NCBI RefSeq assembly: GCF_000023865.1
Contig: NC_013159.1
Location: 1,824,001-1,888,000 of the forward strand
Length of the DNA: 64,000 bases
Reading direction: 5' to 3'
DNA from: Saccharomonospora viridis DSM 43017
GTDB lineage: Bacteria > Actinomycetota > Actinomycetes > Mycobacteriales > Pseudonocardiaceae
The notes under the pieces were generated by a model. That model ran no database searches. It was given only the letters and a program-made list of their open reading frames with translations, and was not told the DNA's origin. Position 1 is the first letter of the stretch. Each line of letters begins with the position of its first letter. Made by a program: the position numbers and the translations under genes. Shown one piece after another: positions 24,069 through 40,752 of the stretch.

Positions 24069-25340
24069 ATGACGACGATGGAATATGAGAGAGTCTTCTC
24101 CCTTGACGATGAAGCGTTGAAATGTCCCTATGAGCATTTCAAGAGGGCCCGCTCCGAATGTCCGGTCAGCCGCAGTGAGGTGGCACAGGTCTGGGTCATC
24201 AGCGACCACGAGCACGTGACCGCGGTGCTGAAGGACGCCGTCACTTTCTCGACCAAGCAGATGTTGGGGCCGCAGGTCGCCGAGGAATGGCAACGCATGA
24301 TCGACCTGGCCGCTGCTACCCCGGAAGGGAAGGAGAAGCTCGGCCCGGAGTACGGCACAAGCCCACGTAAGGTGCTGCTGTTCGCCGACCCGCCGGAGCA
24401 CACCCGGCACCGTAAGCTCATCATGAGTGCCTTGAGCTCTGCCGCGATCCGTTCCTGGGAGGGCAGGATCCGGGAGACCGCGCAGTTGTTCGTCGACCGG
24501 CTGGCCGAACAGCCCCGGGTCAACTTCGTCGAGGACTTCGCGAACGCCTACACCATGACGGTGATCGCCGACATCCTCGGGCTCCCGCGCGAGCAGGTTC
24601 CGCAAATGCTGAAGTGGGCCGCGGGCTTCAACTCCATGGTGGGCAACCCCAACCTCACCCAGGAAGAGGTCGACGCGCTCGTCGACGTCCGGCTCGGTTT
24701 CGACCTCTACTTCGACGAGCAGGTCCAGCAGCGGCGCAAAGAACCCACCGGTGACCTGATCAGCCGGGTCATCGAACTCAACGACGCCGCCGAGGAAAAG
24801 CTCGCCCGTGACGATCTGCTCCAGCTTTTCCAGCTCGTCATGGTCGGTGGCAGTGACACGTCGTCGACCGCGCTGGCCAAGATGATCGAATACCTCGCCG
24901 AGAACCCGGAGCAGTGGACCGAACTCCGCAACGACGCCTCGCGTATCCCGCTGTTCATGGAGGAGATGCTGCGGACGGAGTCCCCGGTCCAGGGCATGTT
25001 CCGCTACGTCACCAAGGACGTGGAACTGGGCGGCCAGAGCCTCAAGCAGGGTGACTACGTGTGGGTCAGCCTCGGTGCGGCCAACCGCGACCCCAAGGTG
25101 TTCGACGACCCCGACACCAAGAACCTCGACCGCAAGGGCACGCCCGCCAAGTATGTGAGCTTCGGTGGCGGTCCGCACACCTGTCCGGGCACCGCGCTCA
25201 TCAGACTCGGACTCCGGATCGTCCTGGAGATGCTGACCGCCCGATTCACCGGTGTGCGCTTCACCGGTGAGAAACCCGCTTCGAAGAAGAGTTTCCTCTT
25301 CTTCGGGCCGGCTGAGTTGCACGTCGAATTCCTGAACTAA
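24069..25340 (+). CDS. Cytochrome P450
   Basis: Soluble bacterial class I P450 of 423 residues. The heme-binding loop FGGGPHTCPGTALIRLGLRI holds the cysteine ligand (about residue 373). The I-helix oxygen site is VMVGGSDTSSTALAKMIEYL, and the K-helix ExxR is EEMLRTESPVQGMFRYV. The ATG at 24069 follows CGAGGAG; the longer open frame overlaps the ABM gene and lacks P450 similarity. The next two genes supply a [2Fe-2S] ferredoxin and its FAD reductase, so the three form a complete hydroxylase as in camphor, terpineol or linalool systems. The substrate cannot be read from the sequence. Confidence 0.95.
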   Translation: MTTMEYERVFSLDDEALKCPYEHFKRARSECPVSRSEVAQVWVISDHEHVTAVLKDAVTFSTKQMLGPQVAEEWQRMIDLAAATPEGKEKLGPEYGTSPRKVLLFADPPEHTRHRKLIMSALSSAAIRSWEGRIRETAQLFVDRLAEQPRVNFVEDFANAYTMTVIADILGLPREQVPQMLKWAAGFNSMVGNPNLTQEEVDALVDVRLGFDLYFDEQVQQRRKEPTGDLISRVIELNDAAEEKLARDDLLQLFQLVMVGGSDTSSTALAKMIEYLAENPEQWTELRNDASRIPLFMEEMLRTESPVQGMFRYVTKDVELGGQSLKQGDYVWVSLGAANRDPKVFDDPDTKNLDRKGTPAKYVSFGGGPHTCPGTALIRLGLRIVLEMLTARFTGVRFTGEKPASKKSFLFFGPAELHVEFLN

Positions 25341-25355
25341 ACCAGAGGAAGCGTT

Positions 25356-25673
25356 ATGCCGCGGGTCACCTACATCGTTGATGGCGTCAAGCAGACCGTG
25401 GAGGGAGCGACAGGCGACTCGGTCATGATCACAGCGGTCCAGAACGGTCTGGACGGCATCGTTGCGGAGTGCGGTGGATCGTGTTCGTGCGCGACCTGCC
25501 ATGTCTACGTCGACGAAGCGTGGATCGAACGGACGGGCCGTGCTACGGAGGAGGAGTCGGAGCTGCTGGAGGGGGCGATGTCGTCACCGCGTCCGACCAG
25601 CCGGCTCTCCTGCCAGATCGAACTCAGCGATGAGCTGGACGGGCTCGTCGTCGAGGTGGCCCCGGAGCAGTGA
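25356..25673 (+). CDS. [2Fe-2S] ferredoxin, putidaredoxin type
   Basis: Electron carrier of 105 residues feeding the P450. The cluster motif is C-x5-C-x2-C in ECGGSCSCATCHVYVDEAW, with the fourth ligand in RLSCQIELSDELDGL near residue 92. The tail VVEVAPEQ matches the usual putidaredoxin end. It lies 15 bases after the P450 stop with AGAGGAAG before the ATG. Its stop overlaps the reductase start. Confidence 0.95.
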   Translation: MPRVTYIVDGVKQTVEGATGDSVMITAVQNGLDGIVAECGGSCSCATCHVYVDEAWIERTGRATEEESELLEGAMSSPRPTSRLSCQIELSDELDGLVVEVAPEQ

Positions 25674-26920
25674 TGATGGCCCACGGTGCGCTCATCGTCG
25701 GCGCGGGACAGGCAGGTCTGCAACTCGCGGTGAGTCTTCGCGATCACGGATACGACGGTCCGGTCACCCTCGTGGGAGACGAGGGCAGTTATCCGTATCA
25801 GCGACCGCCTTTGTCGAAGGACTTCCTCCGCGGGGAGAGGGGGCTGGACTCGCTTCTGCTCCGCAAGCCCGAATTGCTCCGCGCCAAGGACATCGAAGTA
25901 CGCACGGGTACACGGGTCACGGAGCTCGTGGCGGGGGAGTCCGGTGGTTACGCGAACACGTCCGAGGGCGTCGAACTGCCGTTTCGGCATCTTGCGTTGA
26001 CCACCGGTGTCCGACCCCGGCGACTTCCCGTCGCGGGTTCCGACGCGTCGAACGTGCTCTGCCTCCGGACGGTCGAGGACGCTCGGCGGCTGCAGGACGT
26101 CCTGGGCACGGCCCACCGCATCGTCGTGGTCGGTGGTGGCTTCATCGGACTCGAGGCGGCGGCGGTGATGTCCTCACAGGGCAAGCAGGTCACCGTGGTG
26201 GAGGCGCAGGATCGGCTGCTCGCGAGGGTGGCCGGTCCTGTGCTGGGCGAATTCTACCGTCGCATGCATGAAAAGCGCGGTGTCGACGTGCTCCTACGAA
26301 CCATCGTCACCGGGCTCGGTGTGGGTTCCGACGGCCGGGTCACCGAGGTAGTGCTGTCCGATGGAAAGTCCCTGTCATGCGACGCGGTGCTCGTCGGTAT
26401 CGGCGTCGAGCGGGATCGGACGTTCGCGGACCAGCTCGGTCTGACCTGGGACGGCGGCATCCTCGTGGATCAACATGCGCGGACCAGTCGAGCCGGAGTC
26501 GTCGCGGCCGGAGACTGTACCGCAGCGCCGAACCCCTTCGCCGACGGTGCCGTGGTGCGGCTCGAATCCGTGCAGAACGCCGTGGACCAGGCCAAGGCGG
26601 CGGCCTCACTGTGCGGGGCGATGCCACCGAAGCCGGGTGTTCCGTGGTTCTGGTCGGACCAGGGGGCGGTCAAACTGCAGATGGCGGGTCTGACGCAGGG
26701 ATACGACGACTATCTCGTGCGCGGTGAGGTCGATTCCGAGACGTTCTCGGTCATCTACTTCCGCCAGGACAGGTTCATCGGGATCGAAGCCGTCAACCGG
26801 CCGACCGACTTCATGTTCGCCCGGAAGGTGTTGGCGAGCACGGGGGAGATCCGCCGGGGATCGGACACCGTGCTCGCGGATCCGTCCGTTCCGTTGAAGG
26901 ACATCCTCGTCCCGTCATAA
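25673..26920 (+). CDS. NAD(P)H:ferredoxin reductase, putidaredoxin reductase type
   Basis: FAD flavoprotein of about 415 residues that passes electrons from NAD(P)H to the preceding ferredoxin. FAD site ALIVGAGQAGLQLAVSL near the N terminus, YQRPPLSKDFLRG, the NAD(P)H site HRIVVVGGGFIGLEAAAVM near 150, and the second FAD motif GVVAAGDCTAAPNPF near 280. Starts at 25670 (GTG), 25673 (ATG) and 25676 (ATG) are possible; I chose the ATG that overlaps the ferredoxin stop (TGATG). Family identity is clear. Confidence 0.95.
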   Translation: MMAHGALIVGAGQAGLQLAVSLRDHGYDGPVTLVGDEGSYPYQRPPLSKDFLRGERGLDSLLLRKPELLRAKDIEVRTGTRVTELVAGESGGYANTSEGVELPFRHLALTTGVRPRRLPVAGSDASNVLCLRTVEDARRLQDVLGTAHRIVVVGGGFIGLEAAAVMSSQGKQVTVVEAQDRLLARVAGPVLGEFYRRMHEKRGVDVLLRTIVTGLGVGSDGRVTEVVLSDGKSLSCDAVLVGIGVERDRTFADQLGLTWDGGILVDQHARTSRAGVVAAGDCTAAPNPFADGAVVRLESVQNAVDQAKAAASLCGAMPPKPGVPWFWSDQGAVKLQMAGLTQGYDDYLVRGEVDSETFSVIYFRQDRFIGIEAVNRPTDFMFARKVLASTGEIRRGSDTVLADPSVPLKDILVPS

Positions 26921-26992
26921 CCCACTCTTCGGCGACGGCTTCGACGCCGGAACACCACCACCGACCATCATCTCGGTCAAGGGAGTCTTGTG

Positions 26993-28543
26993 ATGTTTTC
27001 CAGGGAATACACCGGTTTCTTCATCGACGGTGCTTGGCGTCAACCATCCGGTTCGGATGTCTTCACCGTCGTGTCACCGTCGACCGGAAAACGGATCGGA
27101 TCCGTGCCGGCGGCGTCCACGGCGGATATCGACGCGGCCGTGGAGGCGGCCCGGCGGGCTTTCTACGAAACCGACTGGCCACATCGTCCGCCCGCCGAGC
27201 GAGCGGCCCTCTGTGAGGCGTTGGCCGCGAAGATCCACGAACGCAAGGGCGACTTCGCCGATCTGCTGGTTGACGAGCTCGGGTGCACGCGTGCGCTCGC
27301 CGACGTGTACCAGGCGGTAGCGCCGACGCTGCATTGGAATTACAACGCCGCGGTAGCCCGGAACTACAACTACACGGAAGTGCGTACCGCCGATCTCGGG
27401 CCTTTGGCCGGGGGATCGGCAGGCGGCATGATCATGCCGTACGAGACACAGAGTCTGGTGGTGAAGGAGCCGGTCGGTGTCGTCGCGACTCTGGTCGCCT
27501 ACAACTTCTCGCTGCCTGGCACCGCGCAGAAGGTGGCGCCCGCCGTGGCGGCCGGGTGCACCGTGGTCATCAAGGTGCCGGAGCCGAACCCGTTGGCGAT
27601 CTTCGCGATGGCCGAGTTGGTGGCCGAGGTGGGTTTCCCGCCCGGAGTGATCAACATCGTGGCCGCAGGTCCGGAGGCGTCGGAGCACCTGGTCAGCCAT
27701 CCGGACGTGGACATGGTGAGTTTCACCGGATCCACCACCATCGGTTCGCGGATCGGTGAGGTGTGTGGCGCGCAGATCAAGCCGACCGTGCTGGAGCTCG
27801 GTGGGAAGTCCGCCGCCATCGTGTTGGAGGACGCCGACCTGGACACCACGATCCCGACGTTGCTGGGTATCAGTGTCATTCCCAGCAGTGGGCAAAGCTG
27901 TGTCTGTCAGAGCCGGTTCCTGGTCCCGCGGAGTCGCCACGACGAGATCGTCGAGCGTTTGGTCGCCGCGTTGGCCGAGGTGAAGGTCGGGGATCCGCAT
28001 GATCCCGAGGTGCAGATGGGGCCGCTCATCACCGAGGCGCACCGAGAGCGGGTCCTGGGGTTCATCGAACGTGCGGTCGACCAAGGCGCGAAGGTCGCCT
28101 TCGGGGGCGGTATTCCGGAAGGACTCACCGAAGGCTGGTACGTCGAGCCCACCCTGCTCACCAACGTCACCAGCGATATGGAGATCGCGCAGGAGGAGGT
28201 GTTCGGTCCCGTCGTGGCCGTGATCGCCTACGAGGACGAGGATGATGCCGTCCGTATCGCCAACGACAGCAAGTACGGGTTGGCGGGGTCGGTGTTCACC
28301 TCCGACATCGCGCATGGTTTCGAGATCGCGCGACGGATTCGGGTGGGGACGTTCTCGGTGAACTCCTACTCGGCCGACTTCAACTCGCCGTTCGGTGGTT
28401 TCAAGAAGTCCGGCATCGGGCGGGAGCACGGTGTCGCCGGATTCGAAAGTTATCTGATTCCGAAGACGATCTCGGTCGATCCCAGTGTCACACTGCCCGA
28501 GGAGATCGTGCGAAGCGCTGACACCGTCACCAGAGGCGTGTAG
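26993..28543 (+). CDS. Aldehyde dehydrogenase, NAD(P)-dependent
   Basis: Oxidises an aldehyde to the acid; 516 residues. Key parts: VGVVATLVAYNFSLPGTAQK, FTGSTTIGSRIGEV, catalytic base glutamate in LELGGKSAAIVLEDADL and catalytic cysteine in SSGQSCVCQSRFLVPRSR; the C-terminal EEVFGPVVAVIAYEDEDDAV and NSPFGGFKKSGIGREHGV are typical. The ATG at 26993 has GGGAG upstream. It is the last gene before the terminator hairpin of the P450 operon. Likely converts the aldehyde made after P450 hydroxylation. Confidence 0.93.
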   Translation: MFSREYTGFFIDGAWRQPSGSDVFTVVSPSTGKRIGSVPAASTADIDAAVEAARRAFYETDWPHRPPAERAALCEALAAKIHERKGDFADLLVDELGCTRALADVYQAVAPTLHWNYNAAVARNYNYTEVRTADLGPLAGGSAGGMIMPYETQSLVVKEPVGVVATLVAYNFSLPGTAQKVAPAVAAGCTVVIKVPEPNPLAIFAMAELVAEVGFPPGVINIVAAGPEASEHLVSHPDVDMVSFTGSTTIGSRIGEVCGAQIKPTVLELGGKSAAIVLEDADLDTTIPTLLGISVIPSSGQSCVCQSRFLVPRSRHDEIVERLVAALAEVKVGDPHDPEVQMGPLITEAHRERVLGFIERAVDQGAKVAFGGGIPEGLTEGWYVEPTLLTNVTSDMEIAQEEVFGPVVAVIAYEDEDDAVRIANDSKYGLAGSVFTSDIAHGFEIARRIRVGTFSVNSYSADFNSPFGGFKKSGIGREHGVAGFESYLIPKTISVDPSVTLPEEIVRSADTVTRGV

Positions 28544-28911: not shown

Positions 28912-30027
28912 GTGACGAAGCCGTGGCCGGTCGGCGACCCGGCGCTGTTGGCGCCCGTCGAGGAACACGAGGACCTGCGTGCGGTCATCCGAAAGGTCCT
29001 GGAGCGTCACGCACCGCACCCCCGGGTCCGTGAGGTCGCCGATTCCCCGTTGGGATACGCCCCCGAGCTGTGGGCGCTGCTCAACTCCGAATTGGGTGTC
29101 AGCGCTCTGGCGGCGCCGGAATCCCGTGGGGGATTAGGGTTCGGCACGCGAGAGCTCGGCGTGGTGCTCGAGGAGTGCGGCCGCGCGTTGATCAGTGAAC
29201 CCGTGCTGTCCTCGGCGGTGCTGGGGGTTCAAGCGCTTCTGGCCGCCGACGACGACGTGGTGGACGACGTGCTCGGGTCGGCGTTGAGCGGAGAGCACAT
29301 CCTCACCCTGGCACCGGATGACGAGGGCGCCGTGCGGGCCGAACCGGCAGGTGAGGGGTGGAAGCTCCACGGGAACATCGCCCGGCTGGTGCACGGCGAG
29401 ATCGCGGATTCGTACGTCGTGTGCGCCTCCACCGCAGAGGGGACGGGGCTGTTCCTGGTCGGTCGGGAGGCGGCGGGTGTGGAGGTGCGGCGACTCACCA
29501 CACTCGACCCCACACGACGTCAGGCGGCCGTGACGTTCGACGCGGCCCCGGCCCGACTGCTGCTCGAACCATCCCGGACGCCGGACGTCCTGCGGCGGTT
29601 GGAGGACCTCGCGCGGGCCTCACTCGCCTGCGAACACGTCGGGATGATCGACCGGATGTTGTCGAGCACCGTCGAGCACGTGACGTCCCGACATCAGTTC
29701 GGCCGTCCTCTCGGCTCGTTCCAGGTGATCAAACACAGATTGGCCGACATGCTCGTCGACCTGGAGCGCGCCCGATCCGCGGCCCGCTATGCGATGGCCG
29801 TGTGGCCGGAGGCCTCGGACAGCGCCTCGCTGGCGGCCGCCGTGGCCGCGGCCGTGTGCACCGACGCGGTCATGCGGGCGACGGCGGACGCCGTTCAGCT
29901 GCACGGCGGGATCGGATTCACCTGGGAACACGAGGCCCACTACTACGTTCGTCGCGCCTTGGGTGACGAGCCGCTGTTCGGTGACGCCCGATCGGCGCGG
30001 GCACGTATCGCGGAACTGGTCCTGTGA
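28912..30027 (+). CDS. Acyl-CoA dehydrogenase family protein, probable beta-type subunit
   Basis: It has 371 residues with the helical N-domain and C-domain of acyl-CoA dehydrogenases: RHQFGRPLGSFQVIKHRLADMLVDLERAR (the FAD-contacting Arg/Phe-Gly segment) and DAVQLHGGIGFTWEHEAHYYVRRA. The middle domain lacks the usual TEP/SETEAGSD flavin motif (here ILTLAPDDEGA), and the catalytic glutamate segment is not obvious. This matches one chain of the heteromeric acyl-CoA dehydrogenases known from steroid degradation; the gene at 32452 has the opposite set of motifs. The GTG start follows GGAGGAGGAGCC. First gene of the second catabolic operon. Confidence 0.88.
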   Translation: MTKPWPVGDPALLAPVEEHEDLRAVIRKVLERHAPHPRVREVADSPLGYAPELWALLNSELGVSALAAPESRGGLGFGTRELGVVLEECGRALISEPVLSSAVLGVQALLAADDDVVDDVLGSALSGEHILTLAPDDEGAVRAEPAGEGWKLHGNIARLVHGEIADSYVVCASTAEGTGLFLVGREAAGVEVRRLTTLDPTRRQAAVTFDAAPARLLLEPSRTPDVLRRLEDLARASLACEHVGMIDRMLSSTVEHVTSRHQFGRPLGSFQVIKHRLADMLVDLERARSAARYAMAVWPEASDSASLAAAVAAAVCTDAVMRATADAVQLHGGIGFTWEHEAHYYVRRALGDEPLFGDARSARARIAELVL

Positions 30028-30093
30028 GGCGAAGTACCCGCGTCCGCTTCTTCTGCTCCGAAGTGGACCCACTACGAAAGAAAGGTCATCACC

Positions 30094-30882
30094 ATGGTTG
30101 AGACGGACCACGTCATCCTCGAAAAGGACGGCGACGTCGCGCGGGTGTGGCTGAACCGGCCGCACAAGAAGAACGCCGTCACCGTGGAGCTGCTGCACCG
30201 ACTGGATGAGATCATCACGGAGGTCGACGAGGACCCCGAGCTGAAGGTCCTCGTCCTGCGCGGTCGGGGCGGCACCTTCTGTTCCGGCTTCGACCTCGAC
30301 GAACTGCTCGCGAACTACGTCGGCAGCACCATGGCCATGGAGGTCGCGGTCCTGTCCGCCAAGGTGTGCGACCGGCTCTACTCGATGAACACCCCTTCCG
30401 TGGCGGTCCTCGAAGGCCATGTCACGGCGGGCGGCTTCGAGCTCATGATCTCCTGCGACTTCGCTGTCGCGGCCGACGACGCCAAGATCGGCGACTTCCA
30501 CATCCGGCGTGCCCTGTTCGGCGGTGCCGGTCCGATCTACCGTCTGCCCCGCATGATCGGACTCCGCAAGACCAAGGAGCTGATGCTCACCGGCAAGCTG
30601 CTCAGCGGTAAGGAGGCCGTCGACTTCGACCTGATCAACGCCTCCGCGCCGGCCGAGGAGCTCGACCAGCTCGTGGCCGACTTCATCGCCCCGATCGTCG
30701 ACAAGAGCCCGTTCACGATGCGGCTGACCAAGATGACGATCAACCAGGGTCTCGACGCCGATGTGCGGTCGCTGATGGTGATGGAGCACCTGGCGGTCGG
30801 CAACGCACTGCAGTCCGAGGACGCCCGCGAGGGTGTTCAGGCCTTCCTGGAGAAGCGTGAACCCAAGTGGGTCGGCCGCTGA
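30094..30882 (+). CDS. Enoyl-CoA hydratase/isomerase family protein
   Basis: Crotonase-fold enzyme of 262 residues: VARVWLNRPHKKNAV, oxyanion-hole segments RGRGGTFCSGFDLDEL and GHVTAGGFELMISCDFAVAA. The first catalytic glutamate (in FELMISCD) is kept. By alignment to classical hydratase the second one falls at His in KIGDFHIRRALFGGAG, so plain hydration is not certain. Probably acts on an unsaturated acyl-CoA made by the neighbouring dehydrogenases. It lies 66 bases after the dehydrogenase gene with GAAAGG before the ATG. Confidence 0.9.
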   Translation: MVETDHVILEKDGDVARVWLNRPHKKNAVTVELLHRLDEIITEVDEDPELKVLVLRGRGGTFCSGFDLDELLANYVGSTMAMEVAVLSAKVCDRLYSMNTPSVAVLEGHVTAGGFELMISCDFAVAADDAKIGDFHIRRALFGGAGPIYRLPRMIGLRKTKELMLTGKLLSGKEAVDFDLINASAPAEELDQLVADFIAPIVDKSPFTMRLTKMTINQGLDADVRSLMVMEHLAVGNALQSEDAREGVQAFLEKREPKWVGR

Positions 30883-30917
30883 GGCGATCCCACGGAAGCG
30901 GTGACGAGGAGGATCAG

Positions 30918-31292
30918 GTGACGGGTGGGCGAGGACGAACGCGGTTGGAGGGGAGTGTCTGCCGTGGCTGCGCGACGGTGGCGTTCCCCCCGGCACAGAC
31001 GTGCCGTCGCTGCGGCGGTCGGGAGACGACGGTGACCGAGCTCGGCACACAGGGCACCCTCTGGGCGCACACGGTGCAGCGTTTCCCACCCAAGTCACCC
31101 CCTTACGTCCCGCCTGCCGACGGTTTCCGGCCGTTCGCCGTCGGCTACGTCGAACTCCCGGAAGGCATCAAGATCGAGGCGATCCTGGACTGCGACGACG
31201 TCGACGAGCTCGTCGCCGGGGCACCGATGTCGTTGGTGGCGACGGAACCGGTGCCCCGGTTCGCGCCGGTGCGGACGGAGGAGGAGCGCTGA
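30918..31292 (+). CDS. DUF35 OB-fold/zinc-ribbon protein, partner of the thiolase-like enzyme
   Basis: 124 residues. The N-terminal zinc ribbon has SVCRGCATVAFPPAQTCRRCGG (CxxC...CxxC). An OB-fold follows (GTLWAHTVQRFPPKSPPYVP, FRPFAVGYVELPEGIKIEAI). Such DUF35 proteins bind acyl-CoA and act as obligate partners of SCP2-thiolase-like proteins, for example the steroid side-chain retro-aldolase Ltp2. GTG 30918 follows GAGGAGGATCAG. Its stop overlaps the next start (TGATG), a strong sign of a stoichiometric pair. Confidence 0.88.
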   Translation: MTGGRGRTRLEGSVCRGCATVAFPPAQTCRRCGGRETTVTELGTQGTLWAHTVQRFPPKSPPYVPPADGFRPFAVGYVELPEGIKIEAILDCDDVDELVAGAPMSLVATEPVPRFAPVRTEEER

Positions 31293-32440
31293 TGTCCACA
31301 GTGGTCATCGCTGGCGTGGGGTTGTCGAAATTCGGCCGACAGCCGGGACGTTCCGGGCGCGACATGGCCGTGGAAGCGATCCACCGGGCTTTGGCGGACG
31401 CCGAGCTGTCGTGGAACGACGTCCAGGTGGCCTTCGGCGGCAGCGACGCCTCGGGACTTGCCGACACCCTCGTCTCGGAACTCGGGCTCACCGGGATCCC
31501 CTTCACCAACGTCAAGAACGGATGTGCCACGGGTGGCAGCGCGCTCGTCTCCGCCGTGAACGCGATCCGAGCCGGAGCGGCCGACATCGCACTCGCGGTG
31601 GGGTTCGACAAACACCCGCGGGGTGCCTTCGACCCCATGCCCGAGGACTGGGGTCTGCCGAGCGGTTACGGCGAGGCGGGGCTCATGGTGACCACCCAGT
31701 TCTTCGGTATCAAGATCTCCCGGTACATGGCCGAACACGGGATCAGCTCCACCACGCTGGCCAAGGTCGCGGAGAAGGCGTACTACAACGGTTCGCTCAA
31801 CCCCAACGCCTGGCGACGGAAACCCCTCAGCGCGGAGGAGATCGCGAACTCGGGCATGGTCAACGACCCCCTCACCCGCTACATGTTCTGCTCCCCCGGT
31901 GAGGGGGCTGCGGCCGTCATCCTCGTCGGTGACGCGGCGGCTCGTCGACTCGGCGGCCGACCGGTTCGGCTGCGCGCGGTGGCCACCCGCACGCGGCGGT
32001 TCGGTTCCTTCGAGGTGTTCAGCCCCTCGATCCAGGGCACGGGAACCCCCTCGAGCGTCAGCGCCGACGCGGCGCGGGCGGTGTTCGAGGCCGCCGGAGT
32101 GGGACCCGAGGACATCGACGTGGCCCAACTGCAGGACACCGAAAGCGGGGCCGAGGTCATGCACATGGCCGAATGCGGCTTCTGCGAGCACGGCGAGCAG
32201 GAGAAGCTGATCGCCGAGGGGCAGACCACCATCGGCGGCCGGTTCCCGGTGAACACCGACGGCGGCTGTATCGCCAACGGCGAACCGATCGGCGCGTCCG
32301 GTCTGCGGCAGGTGCACGAGATCGTGGCACAGCTGCGGGGCACCGCCGGGGCCCGTCAGGTCCCCGGGCGGCCACGTCTCGGTTTCACCCATGTCTACGG
32401 AGCACCCGGGATCAGCGCCTGCACGGTGCTGGAGGCGTGA
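31292..32440 (+). CDS. SCP-x/Ltp-type thiolase-like protein (possible retro-aldolase)
   Basis: 382 residues with the non-decarboxylating thiolase fold: VVIAGVGLSKFGRQPGRS, NVKNGCATGGSALVSAVNAI (position of the thiolase Cys), FCSPGEGAAAVIL, VNTDGGCIANGEPIGASGLRQ. The canonical GHPxGA histidine is Glu here (GEPIGAS), and the C-terminal segment is FTHVYGAPGISACTV with a tyrosine, as in Ltp2-type aldolases rather than true thiolases. With the DUF35 partner encoded immediately before, carbon-carbon cleavage of a beta-hydroxyacyl-CoA is a reasonable guess. Start overlaps the DUF35 stop. Confidence 0.9.
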   Translation: MSTVVIAGVGLSKFGRQPGRSGRDMAVEAIHRALADAELSWNDVQVAFGGSDASGLADTLVSELGLTGIPFTNVKNGCATGGSALVSAVNAIRAGAADIALAVGFDKHPRGAFDPMPEDWGLPSGYGEAGLMVTTQFFGIKISRYMAEHGISSTTLAKVAEKAYYNGSLNPNAWRRKPLSAEEIANSGMVNDPLTRYMFCSPGEGAAAVILVGDAAARRLGGRPVRLRAVATRTRRFGSFEVFSPSIQGTGTPSSVSADAARAVFEAAGVGPEDIDVAQLQDTESGAEVMHMAECGFCEHGEQEKLIAEGQTTIGGRFPVNTDGGCIANGEPIGASGLRQVHEIVAQLRGTAGARQVPGRPRLGFTHVYGAPGISACTVLEA

Positions 32441-32451
32441 GGAGAACACCC

Positions 32452-33660
32452 ATGGCCGACACATCACCTCCCGACATGGACACGTTCGTACGCCAGGCGC
32501 GCGAATGGCTCGCCACGGTCGCACGGCCACGCACGGAACGGACCTGGGGTGAGGGATCCGACTCCGTGGCCGTCTTCGAGAACTGGACGGCCGAACAGGA
32601 ACGAGTGGAGACCGACCGCATCCGTGCCTACGAACAAGCCAAGTTCGACGCCGGATGGGGCGCGCTGAACTGGCCCGCGGAGTACGGCGGGCGAGGCCTG
32701 CCCATGGCCTACGTACTGGCCTTCAGGCGGGAGGAGGCCACGTTCGACGTGCCCCGGCGCACGGAGATGTTCTCGGTGACCCAGCAACTCGTCGCGCCCA
32801 CGATCGCCCAGTGGGGAACGCCAAAGCAGCGCGAACGTTACGTGCGTGCCCTGCTGCGCACCGACCTCATCGCGTGCCAGTTGTTCTCCGAGACCGAGGC
32901 GGGGTCCGATCTGGCGGCCGTCCGTACCCGCGCCGTCCAGGGCGAGGACGGGCGTTGGACCATCGACGGGCACAAGATCTGGACGTCGGGCGCTCGGGTC
33001 GCCGACCTCGGGGTCGCGGTGTGCCGGACCGACCCGGACGTCGCGAAACACGCCGGGTTGACGGTCTTCCTCGTGCCGATGGACGCCCCCGGTGTCACCG
33101 TCCGACCGATCCGGCAGATGACCGGTGGTTCCTCCTTCAACGAGGTGTATCTCGACGGGGTGGTACTCGGTGACGAATACCGACTGGGGCCCGTCGGACA
33201 GGGTTGGAAAGTGGCGCTCACCGTGCTCGCCGCGGAACGACTCGACGCCGGGAACCTCGGCCTCGCCAACGCCGACCAGGCCGTGGAACTGGCCCGGAAC
33301 CTCGGTCGTCCCCTGGACGCGGTGGAGCGGGACCGGGTCGCCGACCTGATCACCCGCAGCTATGTGCAGCGCATCACCGGAATGCGGGTCGCCGAGGCCA
33401 TAGTCGCCGGTCAGGAGCCCGGACCGGAGGCGTCGGTCGGCAAGCTGCTCGCCACCGACACGATGTCGACGACGTCCGAGGTGGTGCGGCTGTTGCTCGG
33501 GCCCGAACTCACCGTCGACTCCGGACGGTGGGGGACCTGGGCGTGGACGGAGCACGTCCTGGGGGCGCCCGGTTATCGCATCGCCGGGGGCACCGACGAG
33601 ATCCAACACAACATCCTGGCCGAACGGGTCCTCGGCCTGCCGAAGGAGCGGTCGGCGTGA
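32452..33660 (+). CDS. Acyl-CoA dehydrogenase family protein, probable alpha-type subunit
   Basis: 402 residues. The middle domain has the flavin motif CQLFSETEAGSDLAAVRTRA and WTIDGHKIWTSGARVADLGV; the C-terminal end has YRIAGGTDEIQHNILAERVLGL. The usual Arg-x-x-Phe-Gly stretch in the C-domain is missing (AVERDRVADLITRSYVQRI instead). This is complementary to the gene at 28912, as in alpha2beta2 acyl-CoA dehydrogenases of steroid and cyclic-substrate breakdown. The ATG at 32452 is 11 bases after the thiolase stop with GGAG before it; the long open frame upstream is a shadow. Confidence 0.92.
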   Translation: MADTSPPDMDTFVRQAREWLATVARPRTERTWGEGSDSVAVFENWTAEQERVETDRIRAYEQAKFDAGWGALNWPAEYGGRGLPMAYVLAFRREEATFDVPRRTEMFSVTQQLVAPTIAQWGTPKQRERYVRALLRTDLIACQLFSETEAGSDLAAVRTRAVQGEDGRWTIDGHKIWTSGARVADLGVAVCRTDPDVAKHAGLTVFLVPMDAPGVTVRPIRQMTGGSSFNEVYLDGVVLGDEYRLGPVGQGWKVALTVLAAERLDAGNLGLANADQAVELARNLGRPLDAVERDRVADLITRSYVQRITGMRVAEAIVAGQEPGPEASVGKLLATDTMSTTSEVVRLLLGPELTVDSGRWGTWAWTEHVLGAPGYRIAGGTDEIQHNILAERVLGLPKERSA

Positions 33661-34628
33661 AAGCGGAGGAGTACGGTTCGGTGCTGTCAAAGCGGGTCGC
33701 TTCGGTGCTCGCGCGGACGCGCCCCGGCAGTACCGTCGAGCCGTTGCGGGTCCTTCCCGGAGGGCATTCGGGGCTGACGTATCGGGCCGAGACCTCGGAC
33801 GGTGCGGTGGTGGTGAAGGCCGTGCCACCCGGGCGGCGTCCCATCGGTCGCCACGACATGATCCGACAGGCCCGGATCATGCGGGCTCTGGCACCGACAC
33901 CGGTGCCGGTGCCGCGTATCGTCGCGGTGGACGAAACCGAGCCCGCGTGGTTCGCGATGGAGTTCTGCGAGGGCGAATCCCTCGAACCGGTGCTCGACGA
34001 TCCGCCACTGGACCCCACCGTGGCCGCGGCGCGGATGCGGCGGGCCGCGGAGATACTCCCGTCGCTGCACAGTGTGCCGGTCGACACGCTGCCGGTCGAC
34101 GGGCCCGCCCTCGACCCCGGCGACGAACTGGCCCGCTGGGCCCGCACCATGGACGCTGTTCCGCCCGAACTGGTCGAAGGCGCCGACATCCTGCACGACG
34201 CCCTCGCCCGGCGGGTCCCGACCGGCCAGGCGCCCACACTGGTGCACGGCGACTACCGACTCGGCAACCTGATCAGTCGGGGGACCGAACCCGTCGCCCT
34301 GATCGACTGGGAGATCTGGAGTATCGGGGACCCTCGGGTGGAACTGGGCTGGTTCCTCGTCTTCGCCGATGGGAGCAATTTCCCCGGAGTAGGCCGTGTC
34401 GTGCCGGAGCTCCCCACCGCCGAAGAACTCGTGGAGACGTACGCCGGAACCGGTTCCGCACCACAGGCGCTGGACTGGTTCCACGCCCTGGGCCGGTTCA
34501 AGATGGCCGCGATCATGGGCCACAACCTTCGCCGCCATCGGGAGGGACGCCACCACGACCCCGATCAGGAACGGCTGCCCGCCACCATCGCGCGTTTGAT
34601 CAGCACCGGACGTGACCTGGTCGCCTGA
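33657..34628 (+). CDS. APH-family phosphotransferase (ACAD10/11 kinase-like)
   Basis: Aminoglycoside-phosphotransferase-fold kinase of 323 residues: [20 protein letters not shown] (nucleotide loop), [14 protein letters not shown] (catalytic HxDxxxxN) and [20 protein letters not shown] (DxE/D metal site). In catabolic operons these proteins sit next to acyl-CoA dehydrogenases and resemble the kinase domain fused to acyl-CoA dehydrogenase in mammalian ACAD10/ACAD11, which handles 4-hydroxyacyl-CoAs. The GTG start overlaps the preceding stop (GTGA) and the next gene is an acyl-CoA dehydrogenase, giving a split version of that fusion. Antibiotic resistance is unlikely. Confidence 0.88.
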
Positions 34629-34654
34629 GCCGGCCGAGAGAGGCGAGAAGAACC

Positions 34655-35873
34655 ATGGATTTCTCATATTCAGCTCGGACTAAAGAACTGCTGGAGCGGC
34701 TTGAGTCCTTCATGGAGGAATACGTCTACCCCGCCGAACGGGTGTACGACGAGCAGATCGCGGCCAGTGACAACCCCCACCGACAGCCCCCGATCATGCG
34801 GGAACTCCAGGCCCGCGCCCGAGAACTCGGATTGTGGAACCTCTTCATGACCCACGGGGACTGGGGTGCTGGACTCACCAACCTGGAATACGCGCCTCTG
34901 GCGGAAGTGCTCGGTCGGTCGATCATCGGCAACGAGGCGGTCAACTGCTCCGCGCCCGACACCGGCAACATGGAGATCCTGGCGATGTACGGGACGCCGG
35001 AGCAGCAGCAGCGGTGGCTGCGGCCGCTGCTGGACTGCCGGATCCGTTCGGCGTTCGCCATGACCGAACCCGAGGTCGCAAGTTCCGATGCCCGCAACAT
35101 CTCCTCGACGATCCATCGGGACGGCGACGAGTACGTGCTGAACGGGCGGAAGTGGTACACCTCCGGGGTCCTGGACCCGGACTGCGAACTCATCATCTTC
35201 ATGGGCAAGTCGAATCCCGACGCCCCGACGTACCGGCAGCAGAGCATGATCCTCGTCCCGCGGGACACCCCGGGCATCACCGTGCTGCGTGATCTGCCGA
35301 TGTTCGGGTACACCGACCGTCTCGGCCACGGCGAGGTGCAGTTCACCGACGTCCGCGTTCCCGTGGAGAACATGCTCGGCAAGGAAGGGGACGGATTCGC
35401 GATCGCCCAGGGTCGCCTGGGACCCGGGCGGATGCACTACGCCATGCGGGCGATCGGCATGGCCGAACGCGCCCTCGACCTCATGTGTGAGCGCGCCCTG
35501 ACCCGCGAGGCCTTCGGCGGTCCGTTGGCGGAACGTGGGGTGGTGCGCGAGTGGATCGCCCGCAGTCGGATGGAGATCGACCAGATTCGGCTGCTGGTGC
35601 TCAAAATCGGTGTGGCTCATGGACACCCGTGGTAACGCCGCCGCCCGCTCGGAGGTGGCCATGATCAAGGTCGCGGCGATGGAGATCGCACATCGCGTCG
35701 TGGACCGTGCGATCCAGGCCTTCGGCGCCGCCGGGGTCAGCGACGACACCGTGCTGGCCCGCCTTTACGCGATCACCCGTGCCCTGCGGATCGCCGACGG
35801 GCCCAACGAGGTGCACCTGCGCACCATCGCCCGACTCGAGTTGAAGCGCCATTCCGAAGGAGCCGTGCGATGA
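34655..35873 (+). pseudogene. Acyl-CoA dehydrogenase (ACAD11-like) with a single-base frameshift
   Basis: Start ATG 34655; frame 1 reads [20 protein letters not shown] to [20 protein letters not shown] and then runs to a stop at 35635. The family sequence continues in another frame: [20 protein letters not shown] to ARLELKRHSEGAVR (stop 35873). The break is at the run AAAA (35603-35606). Removing one A gives [14 protein letters not shown], a normal acyl-CoA dehydrogenase helix. Other motifs are intact ([52 protein letters not shown]). Restored length would be about 405 residues. Either a recent mutation or a homopolymer sequencing error. Confidence 0.85.
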
Positions 35874-36625
35874 CCGACGAGTTCACGGGCAAGGTGGTCC
35901 TGGTCACCGGTGCGACACGCGGCCTCGGCTACGCGATCGCCCGTGGTTTCGCGGCGGCCGGAGCGACCGTGGTCGTCTCCAGTCGTAAGCAGGACGCGTG
36001 TGAGCGGGCCGCCGAGGCCATCACCTCGGAGACCGGGGTACGTGCGGACGCCCTCGCCTTCCACGTCGGCCGTTGGGACACGATCACACCCGCCGTCGAC
36101 GAGGTCTACAGTAGACACGGAAGGCTCGACGTCGTCGTCAACAACGCCGGTATCGCGCCCTTGGCGCCGTCATTGGTCGAGGTGTCCGAGGCGTTGTTCG
36201 ACAAGACGATCGAGGTCAACCTCAAGGGGCCCTTCCGGCTCACGGCCGTCGCCGGTGCGCGTATGGCTAAGGCGGGGGGCGGGGCGGTCGTCAACATCTC
36301 GAGCATCGGAGCGCATCGGCCCAGCCCACCGGAGGCGGTGTACGCGGCGGCGAAGAACGGGCTGAACGCCCTCACCATGGCCTTCGCCCAGGAATACGCG
36401 CCGCGTGTCCGGGTCAACTGTGTCATGCCGGGCGCCTTCGCCACGGAGATGGCCGCCCACTGGGACGAGGAATTCGTGCACAAGGTGGTCGACCGGCTCC
36501 CGGCGGGACGGCTCGGTGAACCCGACGAGATCGTCGGGATGGTGCTTCACCTCGCCTCCGACCGCGCCGGTTACACCACGGGTGCGGTGATCCCCGTGGA
36601 CGGAGGCCGAACCGCCGTCTACTGA
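35870..36625 (+). CDS. SDR-family oxidoreductase (probable 3-hydroxyacyl-CoA dehydrogenase type)
   Basis: 251 residues with a classical SDR core: KVVLVTGATRGLGYAIARGF, VVVNNAGIAPLAPSL, AVVNISSIGAHRPSPPEAVYAAAKNGL (Ser, Tyr, Lys triad) and VRVNCVMPGAFATEM; ends GAVIPVDGGRTAVY. The ATG overlaps the acyl-CoA dehydrogenase stop (ATGA). NAD(P)-dependent oxidation of a hydroxyacyl intermediate fits the operon, but the exact substrate is unknown. Confidence 0.92.
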   Translation: MTDEFTGKVVLVTGATRGLGYAIARGFAAAGATVVVSSRKQDACERAAEAITSETGVRADALAFHVGRWDTITPAVDEVYSRHGRLDVVVNNAGIAPLAPSLVEVSEALFDKTIEVNLKGPFRLTAVAGARMAKAGGGAVVNISSIGAHRPSPPEAVYAAAKNGLNALTMAFAQEYAPRVRVNCVMPGAFATEMAAHWDEEFVHKVVDRLPAGRLGEPDEIVGMVLHLASDRAGYTTGAVIPVDGGRTAVY

Positions 36626-36662: not shown

Positions 36663-37469
36663 ATGGACCACGACAGCACCACGGCCCCGGGGCATGCGTC
36701 GCAGCCGGACCCGGTGACGCGACTGTTCGACGTCCGCGGCAAGGTCGTCGTCGTCACCGGGGCGTCGTCGGGACTGGGTGAGGGTTTCGCGCGCACGTTG
36801 GCGCAGGCCGGGGTCACCGTCTTCGCCGCCGCCCGGAGGGTCGAACGGCTCGAGGTCCTGGCCGAGGAACACGAGTCGGTGATCCCCGTCGCGTGCGATG
36901 TCACGATCGACGCGGATCGGCGGGCCTTGGTCGAGCGGGCGATCGCCGGACGAGGCCGGATCGACATCCTGGTCAACACCGCGGGCATCCCGGGACCGCC
37001 GTATGCCGAGCAGGAGACCGAGGACGGTTTCCGACGCATCCTCGAGGTCAATCTCGCCTCCCAGTTCCACCTCGCCACGGCGGTCGCGGCGACGGTGCCC
37101 GAGGGCCGGGAAGCGAGCATCATCAACGTCTCGTCGGTCATCGGCATGGTCAGCACCGCCCCGATCGGTGGCGCCGGCTACGCCGCCTCCAAAGCGGGGG
37201 TCCTCGGGCTCACGCGTGAACTGGCCGGTCAGTGGGGACGGCGGGGCATCAGGGTGAACGCGATCGTGCCGGGCTGGTTCGACACGGAGATGACCGAGGG
37301 ACTGTTCACCAACGAACGCTCGGCCACGTGGGTTCGGCGGAACACGATGTTGAACCGTGGTGGCCGGGCCGGTGAGGTGGACGGGGCGCTCCTTTTCCTC
37401 GCCTCGCCCGCGTCGTCCTATGTGACAGGTCAGGCGATCGTCGTCGACGGCGGTTGGACGGCCCGGTAG
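36663..37469 (+). CDS. SDR-family oxidoreductase
   Basis: 268 residues: a polar N-terminal extension (MDHDSTTAPGHASQPDPVTR) then VVVVTGASSGLGEGFARTLA, DILVNTAGIPGPPYAEQET, IINVSSVIGMVSTAPIGGAGYAASKAGV (triad) and SYVTGQAIVVDGGWTAR. ATG 36663 follows AGGAGA. Together with the preceding SDR it offers two separate hydroxyl oxidations in the pathway, for example of different chain positions or stereoisomers. Confidence 0.92.
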   Translation: MDHDSTTAPGHASQPDPVTRLFDVRGKVVVVTGASSGLGEGFARTLAQAGVTVFAAARRVERLEVLAEEHESVIPVACDVTIDADRRALVERAIAGRGRIDILVNTAGIPGPPYAEQETEDGFRRILEVNLASQFHLATAVAATVPEGREASIINVSSVIGMVSTAPIGGAGYAASKAGVLGLTRELAGQWGRRGIRVNAIVPGWFDTEMTEGLFTNERSATWVRRNTMLNRGGRAGEVDGALLFLASPASSYVTGQAIVVDGGWTAR

Positions 37470-37484
37470 GACGGCGGTGAGTGG

Positions 37485-38555
37485 ATGGGCGAGACGATGC
37501 GGGCACTGCGGTTGACCGGATGGCAAGCCCCGGTGGCCTGGCAGGATGTCCCCGTCCCCGAACCGGGGCCGGGTCAGGTGCTCGTCGAGGTGCTGGCGAC
37601 AGGGCTGTGCCACTCCGACCTCAACGTCATGGACGCACGGGCCGGGTGGCTGCACTATCCCTTGCCGTTCACGTTGGGACACGAGGTCGCAGGCCGCGTG
37701 GTCGCCACCGGCAGCGGTGTCGACTCGCATTGGGACGGTCGACGGGTCGTGGTCCACGGGGTGTGGTCGTGTCGCACCTGCCGCAACTGCCTGCGTGGTC
37801 GGGAGAATCACTGCCCCACCTTGGGGCGCACCGAACGTGGGCTCCCGCGGATCGGTTGCGGTCTCGGGTGGGACGGTGGGCTCGCGCCGTATCTGCTCGT
37901 TCCCTCCCCCGACTTCCTGGTGCGGGCGGACGGGGTGGACCCCACCGTGCTGGCACCGTTGGCGGACGCCGGGCTGACCGCCTACCACGCCGTGCGGCAA
38001 CACGCTGACCTCCTCGACGGGAACTCGGTGTGCGTGGTGGTCGGCGTCGGTGGTCTCGGCCACCTGGCGTTGCAGGTCCTTCGTGAGCTGGGCTGCGGCA
38101 CGGTGCTCGCCGCCGACACCCGTGCCGCAGCCCGTGATCTGGCGGCCCGGCTCGGCGCCGATCACGTCGTCGACGACGTGGACCGTCTGCGCGGGACCAC
38201 GTGCGCTCTCGGCGGTGCGGACGTCGTGTTGGACTTCGTCGTGTCCCCGGACACCGTGGCGACCGCTGCAGAGCTGCTCGCCTCCGGCGGCCGGTTGGTG
38301 ATGGTCGGAGCCGGGGGCGGTCGGCTGGTCACCGGGAAGGACGGTCGATTGCCGACCGGGTGGCAGGTGTCGGCTCCGTTCTGGGGGACGCGGGCGGGGC
38401 TGGTGGAGGTGGTCCGGCTCGCCGCGGCGGGTCGGCTGTGGCCCGAGACGGAGGTGCACCGGCTGGAGGACGCACTCGACGTGTACGCCCGGTTGCGCCG
38501 TGGGGACGTCCGTGGTCGCGCGGTGGTGGTGCCGCGGTCGGAAGCGGTTCGGTGA
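37485..38555 (+). CDS. Zinc-dependent alcohol dehydrogenase (MDR family)
   Basis: 356 residues. Catalytic zinc site: Cys in ATGLCHSDLNVMDA and His-Glu in LGHEVAGRVV. Structural zinc cysteines are in CRTCRNCLRGRENHC. Cofactor site VCVVVGVGGLGHLALQVLREL. ATG 37485 is 16 bases after the SDR stop; an ATG four codons later (MRALRLTG) is also possible. Likely oxidises a primary or secondary alcohol formed by the P450, feeding the aldehyde dehydrogenase at 27-28.5 kb. Confidence 0.93.
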   Translation: MGETMRALRLTGWQAPVAWQDVPVPEPGPGQVLVEVLATGLCHSDLNVMDARAGWLHYPLPFTLGHEVAGRVVATGSGVDSHWDGRRVVVHGVWSCRTCRNCLRGRENHCPTLGRTERGLPRIGCGLGWDGGLAPYLLVPSPDFLVRADGVDPTVLAPLADAGLTAYHAVRQHADLLDGNSVCVVVGVGGLGHLALQVLRELGCGTVLAADTRAAARDLAARLGADHVVDDVDRLRGTTCALGGADVVLDFVVSPDTVATAAELLASGGRLVMVGAGGGRLVTGKDGRLPTGWQVSAPFWGTRAGLVEVVRLAAAGRLWPETEVHRLEDALDVYARLRRGDVRGRAVVVPRSEAVR

Positions 38556-38565
38556 GGAGGACGTG

Positions 38566-40076
38566 GTGAAGCAACTGGCAACGGAGCTGACCAGTCGAGC
38601 GGCGACCGACCCCGACACGGTCGCGGTGATCGATGCGGATGGCCAGCACACTCTGGGCGAGGTCGTCACAGAGGCCTCGCGGTTGGCCGCTTGGCTGGAG
38701 GAGGCCGTGGGTGGTTCCCCGACCGTTCTCGTGCAGGCGGACAACTCGTGGCGCACGCTGGCGGCGGCGGTCGCGGTCGGTTTGCGGGGTGGTCTGATCG
38801 CCGTCACCAGTAGGCAAGCCACCGCCTCCGAAGTGGCGTTGGCGCTGGAGGATCTACGGCCTGATGTCGTCGTGGCAGCCGACGACGTCCTCGCCGGATG
38901 GCGGCTGCCCCGGGAGTTCGCCGTCTCCGGCACGGCGCTGGCCGGCTGGCGGACGAGGGCGAAACAGCCACCTGCCAGCGACGTGACACGCTGGGGCGGT
39001 GGCTCGGTGGTGGCGATGACCTCGGGGTCCACCGGGCGGCCCAAATGCGTCGTGCAGTCCGAGGACGCACTCCGCTACGCGGGCTCCTGCACCGTCGAGG
39101 CGGTGGGACTCCGTGCCGGTGATCCGGTGGCCGCGTTGGTGCCGCTGTCCTCCGTCGCGGCGTTCTGTTTCGGCATGTACCTGCCGGCATCGCTCGGCGC
39201 GCCCATGGTCTGTTTGGACAAATGGAGCCCGCAAAAGGCTCTCGAGCTGATGGAACAACACCGGGTGAGCTGGACGATGCTGGTACCCACCATGGCGCTG
39301 CAACTGGCGGTGCAGCCCGGCGCCGAAGGGGCTTTGACGTCCTTGAAGGCCATGACCGTCGGGGGTGGCCCCATGGACGCCGGGGCGCTGCAACGGGCCG
39401 AGACCGTCCTGGCACCCGGATCCTGCGCGTGTTCGGCATGTCGGAGTGCCTGGGGCACACGACACCGCGTCCGGACGAGCCGTGGGAGATCCGTCTGGGC
39501 CGGGACGGTCGCCCGTTCCCCGGCACCGTGGTGCGGGCCGTCGACGCCGACGGGAACGAACTGCCGCCGGGCACGGTCGGCGAGGCGCAAGTCCGAGGGC
39601 CGTCGTTGTTCGTCGGCTACGCCCGGGACGGCCGAGTGGAACGTCCGCGGTTCACCGCCGACGGGTTCCTGCCCACCGGGGACCTGGTCGAGGTGGGACA
39701 CGACGGCACCATCAAGGTCTCCGGACGCAAAAAACAGATCATCATCCGAGGTGGACGGAACATCGACATCAACGAGGTGGAGGCCGCGGTCGGTCGGATG
39801 CCCGGCATCAACCAGGTGTGTGTCGTTCCGGTGCCCGACGACGTCCTCGGGGAGCGTGTGGCGGCCCTGGTCGTCGCCGAGGGCGGGACCCTGGGGTTGT
39901 CGGAGGTCACCCGATGGCTTGAGGAGTCCGGATTCCCGAAGCAGAAGTGGCCTGAATACGTCTTCACCGTGCCGGAATTACCGCGCAACCGGGTCGGCAA
40001 GCTGTCGCGTCCTGATGCCACTGCACTGGCCGTGCGTTTGAGGGATAGTGACCCTAGTTCAGGTCAAACCTCCTAG
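38566..40076 (+). pseudogene. AMP-forming acyl-CoA synthetase/ligase with a single-base frameshift
   Basis: The N-terminal frame reads VKQLATELTSRAATDPDTVA to the AMP-binding motif VAMTSGSTGRPKCVVQSEDA and LKAMTVGGGPMDAGALQRAE, then leaves the family sequence at TVLAPGSC. The other frame continues at TRILRVFGMSECLGHTTPRP, LPTGDLVEVGHDGTIKVSGR, KKQIIIRGGRNIDINEVEAA and ELPRNRVGKLSRPD, ending at 40076. Adding one G at GG (39411-39412) restores the sequence as ETVLGTRILRVFGMSECLG, giving about 503 residues. The enzyme would activate the pathway acid as a CoA ester. Recent damage or a sequencing error cannot be told apart here. Confidence 0.85.
40048..40062 (-). promoter_or_regulatory. Operator-like motif D upstream of the TetR gene
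   Basis: Minus-strand CTGAACTAGGGTCAC, matching CTGAACT-N4-TCA. It overlaps the last codons of the ligase gene and lies about 65 bases before the tetR start, a good place for autoregulation. Confidence 0.55.
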
Positions 40077-40125: not shown

Positions 40126-40752
40126 ATGCCGACACAGACTCTTTCCACGGGGGAAAGCCCTCGTTCGAAGCGGAAGGTGATCCTCGACGCCGCGATCGAC
40201 CATTTCGGCGAGGTCGGCTTCGAGCACACCAAATGGGCCACGATCGCCAGTCAGGTCGGCATCGGTCAGACGGCTCTGTACCACTACTTCGAGTCGAAGT
40301 CCCATTGCCTGCTCACCATCATGCGCATGGAGCTCGATCAGAGCCTTGCGCGTGTCCGTGAGGCCACCGACGGCATCAAGGACCCCGAGAAGGCTCTCGC
40401 GGCGGCCATCACATCGGCGTACGAGGGTGCTTCACCGCGCGACGCCCTGCAGCGACGCATCCTGCAGAACCACATGGATCTGTTGTCCACGCCGAGGCAG
40501 TCGGAGCGGGAGGAAGCGGAACGGCAGCGTTCTCGTGAACTGGTCCGGGAGATCGAGGCCGAATGGGCCGCGTTGATCCGACGCGGCATCAAGGCGGGTG
40601 TCTTCGCCAAGCAGGACGCACACCTCGCCACGCGGCTGGTGCTGGGCCTGGTCGTGAGCATCTGGCGTTGGTACCGGCCGGGTGGCCCGCTGTCACTGGA
40701 CCAGATCACCGAAATGGTCAAGAACGCCTCGTTGAAAATGCTGCGCCCTTGA
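40126..40752 (+). CDS. TetR-family transcriptional regulator
   Basis: 208 residues. N-terminal helix-turn-helix: RKVILDAAIDHFGEVGFEHTKWATIASQVGIGQTALYHYFESKSHC. The C-terminal part is helical and fits the ligand-sensing TetR_C domain. As the only local regulator of the catabolic island, it is the best candidate to bind the CTGAAYT-N4-TCA motifs, with a CoA ester or substrate as inducer. That link is inference. Confidence 0.92.
   Translation: MPTQTLSTGESPRSKRKVILDAAIDHFGEVGFEHTKWATIASQVGIGQTALYHYFESKSHCLLTIMRMELDQSLARVREATDGIKDPEKALAAAITSAYEGASPRDALQRRILQNHMDLLSTPRQSEREEAERQRSRELVREIEAEWAALIRRGIKAGVFAKQDAHLATRLVLGLVVSIWRWYRPGGPLSLDQITEMVKNASLKMLRP

Follow-up and report, generated by a model that had tools for sequence, protein, structure and literature searches.

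Two acyl-CoA dehydrogenase genes of Saccharomonospora viridis probably encode the subunits of one heteromeric enzyme

Results

Two acyl-coenzyme A (acyl-CoA) dehydrogenase (ACAD) genes of the thermophilic actinobacterium Saccharomonospora viridis DSM 43017 each lack the active-site motifs that the other retains. Do they encode two enzymes, or two subunits of one? The genes lie in a 64,000-nucleotide stretch of DNA, here called the window, which spans positions 1824001-1888000 of the single-contig genome (NC_013159.1; 4,308,349 bases). We refer to their products as proteins A and B:

28912-30027, + strand: protein A, GTG start, 371 amino acids; putative beta-type ACAD subunit (ADP side of flavin adenine dinucleotide (FAD), non-catalytic)
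32452-33660, + strand: protein B, ATG start, 402 amino acids; putative alpha-type ACAD subunit (isoalloxazine side, catalytic Glu262)

The GTG start of A is preceded by GGAGGAGGAG. The two genes lie 2.4 kb apart on the same strand, with three genes between them (hydratase, DUF35 and thiolase). Complementary motifs, relatives that fall on opposite chains of known heteromers, linkage of the two gene types, fusions between them and a second pair in the same genome together make it very probable that one alpha2beta2 ACAD is formed, with A as its beta and B as its alpha subunit.

A and B carry complementary halves of an ACAD active site

The roles of the ACAD middle-domain and C-domain motifs in the FAD site, and of the catalytic glutamate, are textbook knowledge. 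We read the corresponding residue columns from an alignment of A and B with solved and own-genome ACADs. Protein A contains the C-domain segments R260-H-Q-F263-G264 and Q329-L-H-G332-G333, while its S-E-x-x-x-G-S-D columns hold other residues or gaps; Pfam detects Acyl-CoA_dh_N, Acyl-CoA_dh_1 and, more weakly, Acyl-CoA_dh_2 in this protein, and Acyl-CoA_dh_M was not detected. Protein B contains S146-E-T-E-A-G-S-D153, W177-T-S and E262, with the Acyl-CoA_dh_N, _M and _1 domains all detected, and its R260, Q262, F263, G264 and Q329 columns are occupied by other residues or gaps. Glu262 of B sits at the position used by isovaleryl-CoA dehydrogenase, with glycine at the position used by medium-chain acyl-CoA dehydrogenase (MCAD). 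Protein A has alanine and phenylalanine at these two columns and no catalytic Glu. Among 14 ordinary ACADs, 12-14 hold the middle-domain S/T-E..G-S-D residues and 12-14 the C-domain R..FG and Q..GG.G residues, with the Q262 column variable. The initial annotation of this locus had described A as keeping Arg-His-Gln-Phe-Gly without the middle-domain flavin motif, and B as keeping SETEAGSD without that C-domain segment; the alignment columns bear out both descriptions, and the Pfam matches agree for A.

By analogy with solved heteromers, we infer that A and B assemble, share FAD in a fixed stoichiometry and are active together. B would hold the isoalloxazine ring via SETEAGSD and WTS, and would also hold the acyl-CoA; its Glu262 would take the alpha proton, with the beta hydride passing to FAD. 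A would line the opposite side of this FAD site with Arg260, Phe263 and the QLHGG loop, and would hold the ADP half there. The mirror-image site would be dead because A lacks the middle-domain motif and Glu and B lacks the C-domain segments, giving two FAD per tetramer.

A and B resemble opposite chains of known heteromeric ACADs

In a sequence search of solved structures, the best matches of A are Tcur3481 (6wy8_A, 122 bits) and ChsE5 (4x28_D, 120 bits), followed by an ordinary ACAD at 89 bits. B matches Tcur3483 at 129 and 128 bits (two sequence versions), then 8hk0_A of the Fic32-33 complex (100 bits) and ChsE4 (4x28_A, 97 bits), with the next match at 87 bits. We assigned the 4X28 chains to ChsE4 and ChsE5 from motifs and length. 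Profile searches gave the same division: the A family scores 240 and 202 bits against heteromer betas versus 189 for the next match, and the B family 226, 225, 207 and 165 bits against heteromer alphas versus 159. In fold searches with AlphaFold monomer models, the top four matches of A are Tcur3481 and ChsE5 chains, and the top five of B are Tcur3483, 8hk0 and ChsE4 chains. The mean predicted local distance difference test score (pLDDT) is 89.6 for A and 79.3 for B; the low-scoring stretches B 148-154, B 373-386 and A 335-337 are FAD loops and were not used as evidence.

The Tcur3481-Tcur3483 (6WY8/6WY9) and ChsE4-ChsE5 (4X28) pairs split the FAD site and catalytic Glu over two chains, like A and B. 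A is 32% identical to their beta chains and B 29-30% to their alpha chains; unlike these pairs, the window genes are separated by three others. Parts of PMC8399759 and PMC11153573 describe the shared FAD site of heteromeric ACADs, and the former places the catalytic Glu of the steroid heterotetramers in one subunit only, with one FAD at the dimer interface, and presents CasC as a fused version with Glu in its C-terminal half. Under this published scheme, B would be the alpha chain and A the beta chain.

Curated models point in the same direction, all far under their cut-offs. The best for A is the IpdE2 model of the IpdE1-IpdE2 enzyme (NF050027; 179 bits against an equivalog cut-off of 450), which was also matched by all 15 A-types of one of our alignments (A2). 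The pimeloyl-CoA dehydrogenase PimC-PimD, a non-steroid enzyme (TIGR03204/TIGR03203), provides the best model for B with its large subunit, PimC, and the second best for A with its small subunit, PimD; the NCBIfam equivalog cut-offs are not reached (147 bits against 624, and 142 against 653). Chain A of the Fic32-33 complex from Streptomyces ficellus (8HK0) is related to B and branches on the alpha side, and just one 8HK0 sequence stands among the best 60 rows of each of the A-profile and B-profile lists taken together. A search of open-licence papers found none on the Fic32-33 complex and nothing helpful on PimD.

To place the pair we used a sample of B-type loci, the best 80 of at least 592 confirmed candidate loci, found with search patterns that contained the SE..AGSD and KVW motifs. 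An unrooted maximum likelihood tree was built from 77 proteins: those of 17 of the 80 loci and of alignments A1 and A2, five known subunits and eight ordinary enzymes. Steroid enzymes of the FadE28/29, IpdE and Scd kinds, and the Pim sequences, were outside this tree, and some of the sampled loci may encode such steroid enzymes. In the tree, 32 A-types join the two known betas (support 100/99) and 32 B-types join the three known alphas (support 100/98). The window proteins fall within these groups, on branches beside those of the solved steroid enzymes; in both halves the closest row is that of Williamsia sp. 1138. The A half does not unite the cluster members that the B half unites.

B-type genes usually have an A-type partner

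Of the 80 loci, 55 contain an A-type gene, either separate or fused to B. We counted linkage in the 51 covered loci, which have at least 5 kb of flank on each side. An A-type gene lies near B in 40 of these at a threshold of 130 bits and in 36 at a strict 200 bits, and in 30 it adjoins B on the same strand (29 with fused genes placed otherwise). The chance expectation is 0.8 of 51, based on 38 A-types counted across 49 Mb of sequence in 12 genomes. Full-length ordinary ACADs of this genome score 107-177 bits, a range that includes the 130-bit threshold. When open reading frames with a flavin motif were barred as well, the count was 40 of 51 at 130 bits (no open reading frame lost), 37 at 180 and 36 at 200.

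Two loci carry fusions (L127, 1295-3598; L151, 8600-10990), each a single, CasC-like frame in which the A-type domain precedes the B-type domain. At the level of genomes, a survey of 150 members of the family at E 1e-40 gave an A match in 104 and a B match in 119; all 104 have both, and 15 have a B match and no A match. These genomes are related, so the 104 co-occurrences are not independent cases.

The S. viridis genome itself encodes a second pair, A' (1727719-1728861) and B' (1728894-1730096), adjacent on one strand (L001 9701-12096). A' is 43% identical to A and B' 40% identical to B, and the pair adjoins an ACAD11-type gene and an APH kinase gene. Within the genus, five of six further genomes give an A match, with E values of only 1e-46 to 1e-63; these matches are probably of the A' type.

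The initial annotation had proposed one alpha2beta2 heteromer. That proposal is supported by the opposite-chain relatives, the curated models, linkage in 36-40 of the 51 covered loci, the fusions and the adjacent second pair.

We also examined residue conservation. For SE..AGSD and KVW, conservation in B-types is partly built in, since both motifs were in the search patterns. E262 is independent of these patterns, and it is kept in all 80 B-types. The R260 and F263 columns of B-types hold mixed residues, with Arg at the former in nine of 80. Conversely, the nearest A-type partners at these loci (n = 55) keep R260 in 54, F263 in 53 and G332 in 53 cases, and none has Glu at the E262 column or at the MCAD column; the MCAD-column zero depends on the alignment, with Glu one column beside it in 7 of 55 A-types and 17 of 80 B-types. 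Such strict retention of R260 and F263 across the aligned A-types is unlike a relic. Glu241 of A is retained in 47 of the 55 A-types, and ordinary rows vary there (Gln in 4 of 14).

The distance matrices of 56 A/B pairs are correlated (r 0.75; none of 2000 permutations as high), to which shared species history contributes. This comparison leaves out one of 57 pairs, in which the A-type row is short.

A and B belong to a gene run shared with Williamsia

From A onward, the other genes of the run are:

30094-30882, + strand: enoyl-CoA hydratase, between A and B; best curated model EchA19, under its cut-off
30867-31292, + strand: DUF35/OB-fold protein with a CXXC...CXXC zinc ribbon; probable thiolase partner; start codon uncertain
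31292-32440, + strand: lipid-transfer-type thiolase, N-G-C motif present
33657-34628, + strand: APH-family kinase, resembling the ACAD11 kinase domain
34655-35873, + strand: third ACAD, C, of the ACAD11/LvaC type; frameshift at about 35604
35870-36625, + strand: short-chain dehydrogenase 1
36663-37469, + strand: short-chain dehydrogenase 2
37485-38555, + strand: zinc alcohol dehydrogenase
38563-40076, + strand: AMP-binding acyl-CoA ligase; frameshift at about 39363-39411; start at 38563 or 38566
40126-40752, + strand: TetR-type regulator, last gene of the run

The twelve genes from A to TetR share a strand, several of them overlap and no gap exceeds 66 bp, so the run is likely a single transcript. 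Williamsia sp. 1138 (L080) has a colinear locus: A, enoyl-CoA hydratase, DUF35, thiolase, B, APH, C, two short-chain dehydrogenases, alcohol dehydrogenase, ligase and TetR. Its hydratase is 86% identical to that of the window, B 77% and A 48%.

At four further loci (L066, L067, L068 and L069), the counterparts of B, hydratase and thiolase show 65-79% identity to the window proteins but that of A only about 42-46%, and the position of A varies. This pattern suggests that the beta subunit is fast-evolving or exchanged.

Points against an A-B enzyme and other pairings

Several observations weigh against A and B forming one enzyme. A is far less conserved than B in the Williamsia comparison, the nearest neighbours of A and B agree in just 23 of the 56 pairs, and in two relatives, G012 and G052, the A gene lies 11-15 kb away from B. 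Eleven of the 51 covered loci have no A-type in the locus; an A-type is found elsewhere in the genome for ten of these, and for the less covered L112. L091, a 2.1-Mb metagenome-assembled genome, has a B-type locus and no A-type in the genome. The remaining 13 loci without A all have short flanks. The monomer model of B is of only moderate confidence (pLDDT 79.3). Finally, both pieces of the frameshifted C are 82% identical to the intact Williamsia gene, and the ligase is unbroken in L080, L066, L068, L069 and L074, and in L073 over the matched part. According to the genome report (PMC3035233), the sequence was finished from Sanger data at 12.9x coverage and has fewer than 1 error per 100,000; given this quality, the two frameshifts may be real and the pathway may be impaired or decaying in this strain.

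The fast evolution of A, the covered loci without a local A and the 15 family genomes with a B match only would fit a reading in which A and B are two separate homomeric enzymes, or B is a homomer and A a non-enzymatic relic. We consider this highly improbable: the C-domain FAD segment, essential to a homodimer, is gone from most B-types, A-types keep that segment with no Glu at either catalytic column, R260 and F263 are strictly kept, and A-B fusions exist. A homotetramer of either protein was rejected on the missing half-sites in both families.

The low conservation of A and the disagreement among nearest neighbours mean that partners may have been exchanged. Applied to this strain, A and B could be heteromer subunits with mixed partners, A with B' or B with A', or exchangeable ones. 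A second pair to draw on, the strongly differing conservation of A and B, and an A tree that does not unite the cluster members united in the B tree all speak for mixing, and the single tight gene run, colinear in Williamsia, and the low identity of A' and B' to A and B speak against it. On balance we find mixed partners improbable and retain one enzyme composed of A and B.

A steroid substrate is not implied

The initial annotation had linked the complementary pair to steroid degradation. The nearest solved structures are indeed steroid enzymes; the genome, in turn, has no good match to the two ring-degradation genes tested, of the KshA and HsaC types. Its KshA_C match covers a third of the profile and scores 21 bits (23.3 with neighbours, just reaching the Pfam threshold of 23.3), compared with 305-321 bits in the relatives having KshA. 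With TIGR03213, a model of HsaC-type extradiol dioxygenases, we found no match in this genome, G012 or G052 and weak matches in G042 and G127; each of the nine relatives searched that have a strong KshA gave 324-366 bits, short of the model's cut-off of 366.45. The weak KshA_C match and the absence of a TIGR03213 match make ring degradation by the 9,10-seco route unlikely in this genome.

A and B could still form a steroid side-chain enzyme like their solved relatives, since side-chain trimming could occur without ring degradation. The P450, aldehyde dehydrogenase, EchA19-like hydratase and DUF35-thiolase genes recall sterol side-chain clusters, and seven of the 15 relatives with a B of at least 49% identity have a strong KshA. 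Of the other eight, seven have no match and one a weak match (G127, in which B is partial). For G012 and G052, with a B at 71% identity to that of the window, neither KshA nor TIGR03213 gave a match. Moreover, the window pair forms a sister group to the Tcur/ChsE steroid pairs and lies outside their branch. We therefore regard a steroid side-chain role as unlikely, and steroid function in general as weakened by these gene contents.

The two-subunit design is best known from bacteria that break down cholesterol and bile acids. The literature that we found on heteromeric ACADs deals largely with steroid and bile-salt catabolism; the search covered open-licence papers, so non-steroid pairs may be described elsewhere. 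Database entries already record PimC-PimD and Fic32-33, so a heteromeric ACAD outside steroid metabolism has precedents, and A/B is an additional member of a known two-subunit ACAD design. The pair occurs in a genome without a good KshA or HsaC match and many related pairs occur elsewhere, so a heteromeric ACAD is by itself no sufficient ground for annotating a steroid pathway. Conversely, reading A or B singly as an ordinary ACAD misses that neither likely works alone. As a broader and tentative possibility, which we hold to be somewhat doubtful, these loci may represent a large two-part ACAD family, sister to the solved steroid pairs and spread over actinobacteria, proteobacteria and others, that acts mostly on non-steroid acids; its betas would be exchangeable between alphas, and one branch would carry a split ACAD11/LvaA-LvaC module that phosphorylates a 4-hydroxy group and then eliminates it.

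The neighbouring genes suggest a beta-oxidation round

Judged by their sequence families, the ligase, AB, hydratase, short-chain dehydrogenase and DUF35-thiolase most likely make up one round of beta-oxidation. AB would perform its first step, followed by the hydratase, a short-chain dehydrogenase and the DUF35-thiolase.

The likeness of this locus to ACAD10/ACAD11 and LvaA-LvaC concerns the neighbours APH and C, not A and B. APH matches the ACAD11 kinase part at 61-65 bits, behind 3dxp (76) and 9o56 (69), and C', the intact paralogue of C, matches ACAD11 at 452 bits. ACAD11 fuses kinase and ACAD, whereas the window has separate APH and C genes, with C frameshifted. An APH kinase gene stands beside an ACAD11-type gene both in the window (33657-35873) and in the A'B' cluster (L001 12060-14284). 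As described in part of PMC11342911, LvaA/LvaC and ACAD10/11 phosphorylate 4-hydroxyacyl-CoA and then eliminate phosphate. By analogy, the APH and ACAD11-type pair looks like a split bacterial version of this 4-hydroxyacyl-CoA module, in which the APH kinase and C would remove a 4-hydroxy group. Both genes are found near B in just four of the 51 covered loci, so the link holds for the branch of the window only. The possible module offers a concrete substrate class to try.

C itself was considered as a partner of A or B and rejected: in C' both half-sites are present, slightly altered, and there is no complementarity. In the tree C' falls with the ordinary enzymes, with support of just 94/69 and on a long branch.

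An Ltp2-type aldolase was likewise rejected for the DUF35-thiolase. The window thiolase keeps its N-G-C motif, and Ltp2 and Sal2 are described in part of PMC8399759 as being without the catalytic Cys; the lipid-transfer-type protein is thus more likely a thiolase than an aldolase.

Upstream, 368 bp separate A from genes for a P450, a ferredoxin reductase and an aldehyde dehydrogenase (24072-28543). These three are unmatched in the 21-kb Williamsia locus, and they could be a substrate-specific entry module.

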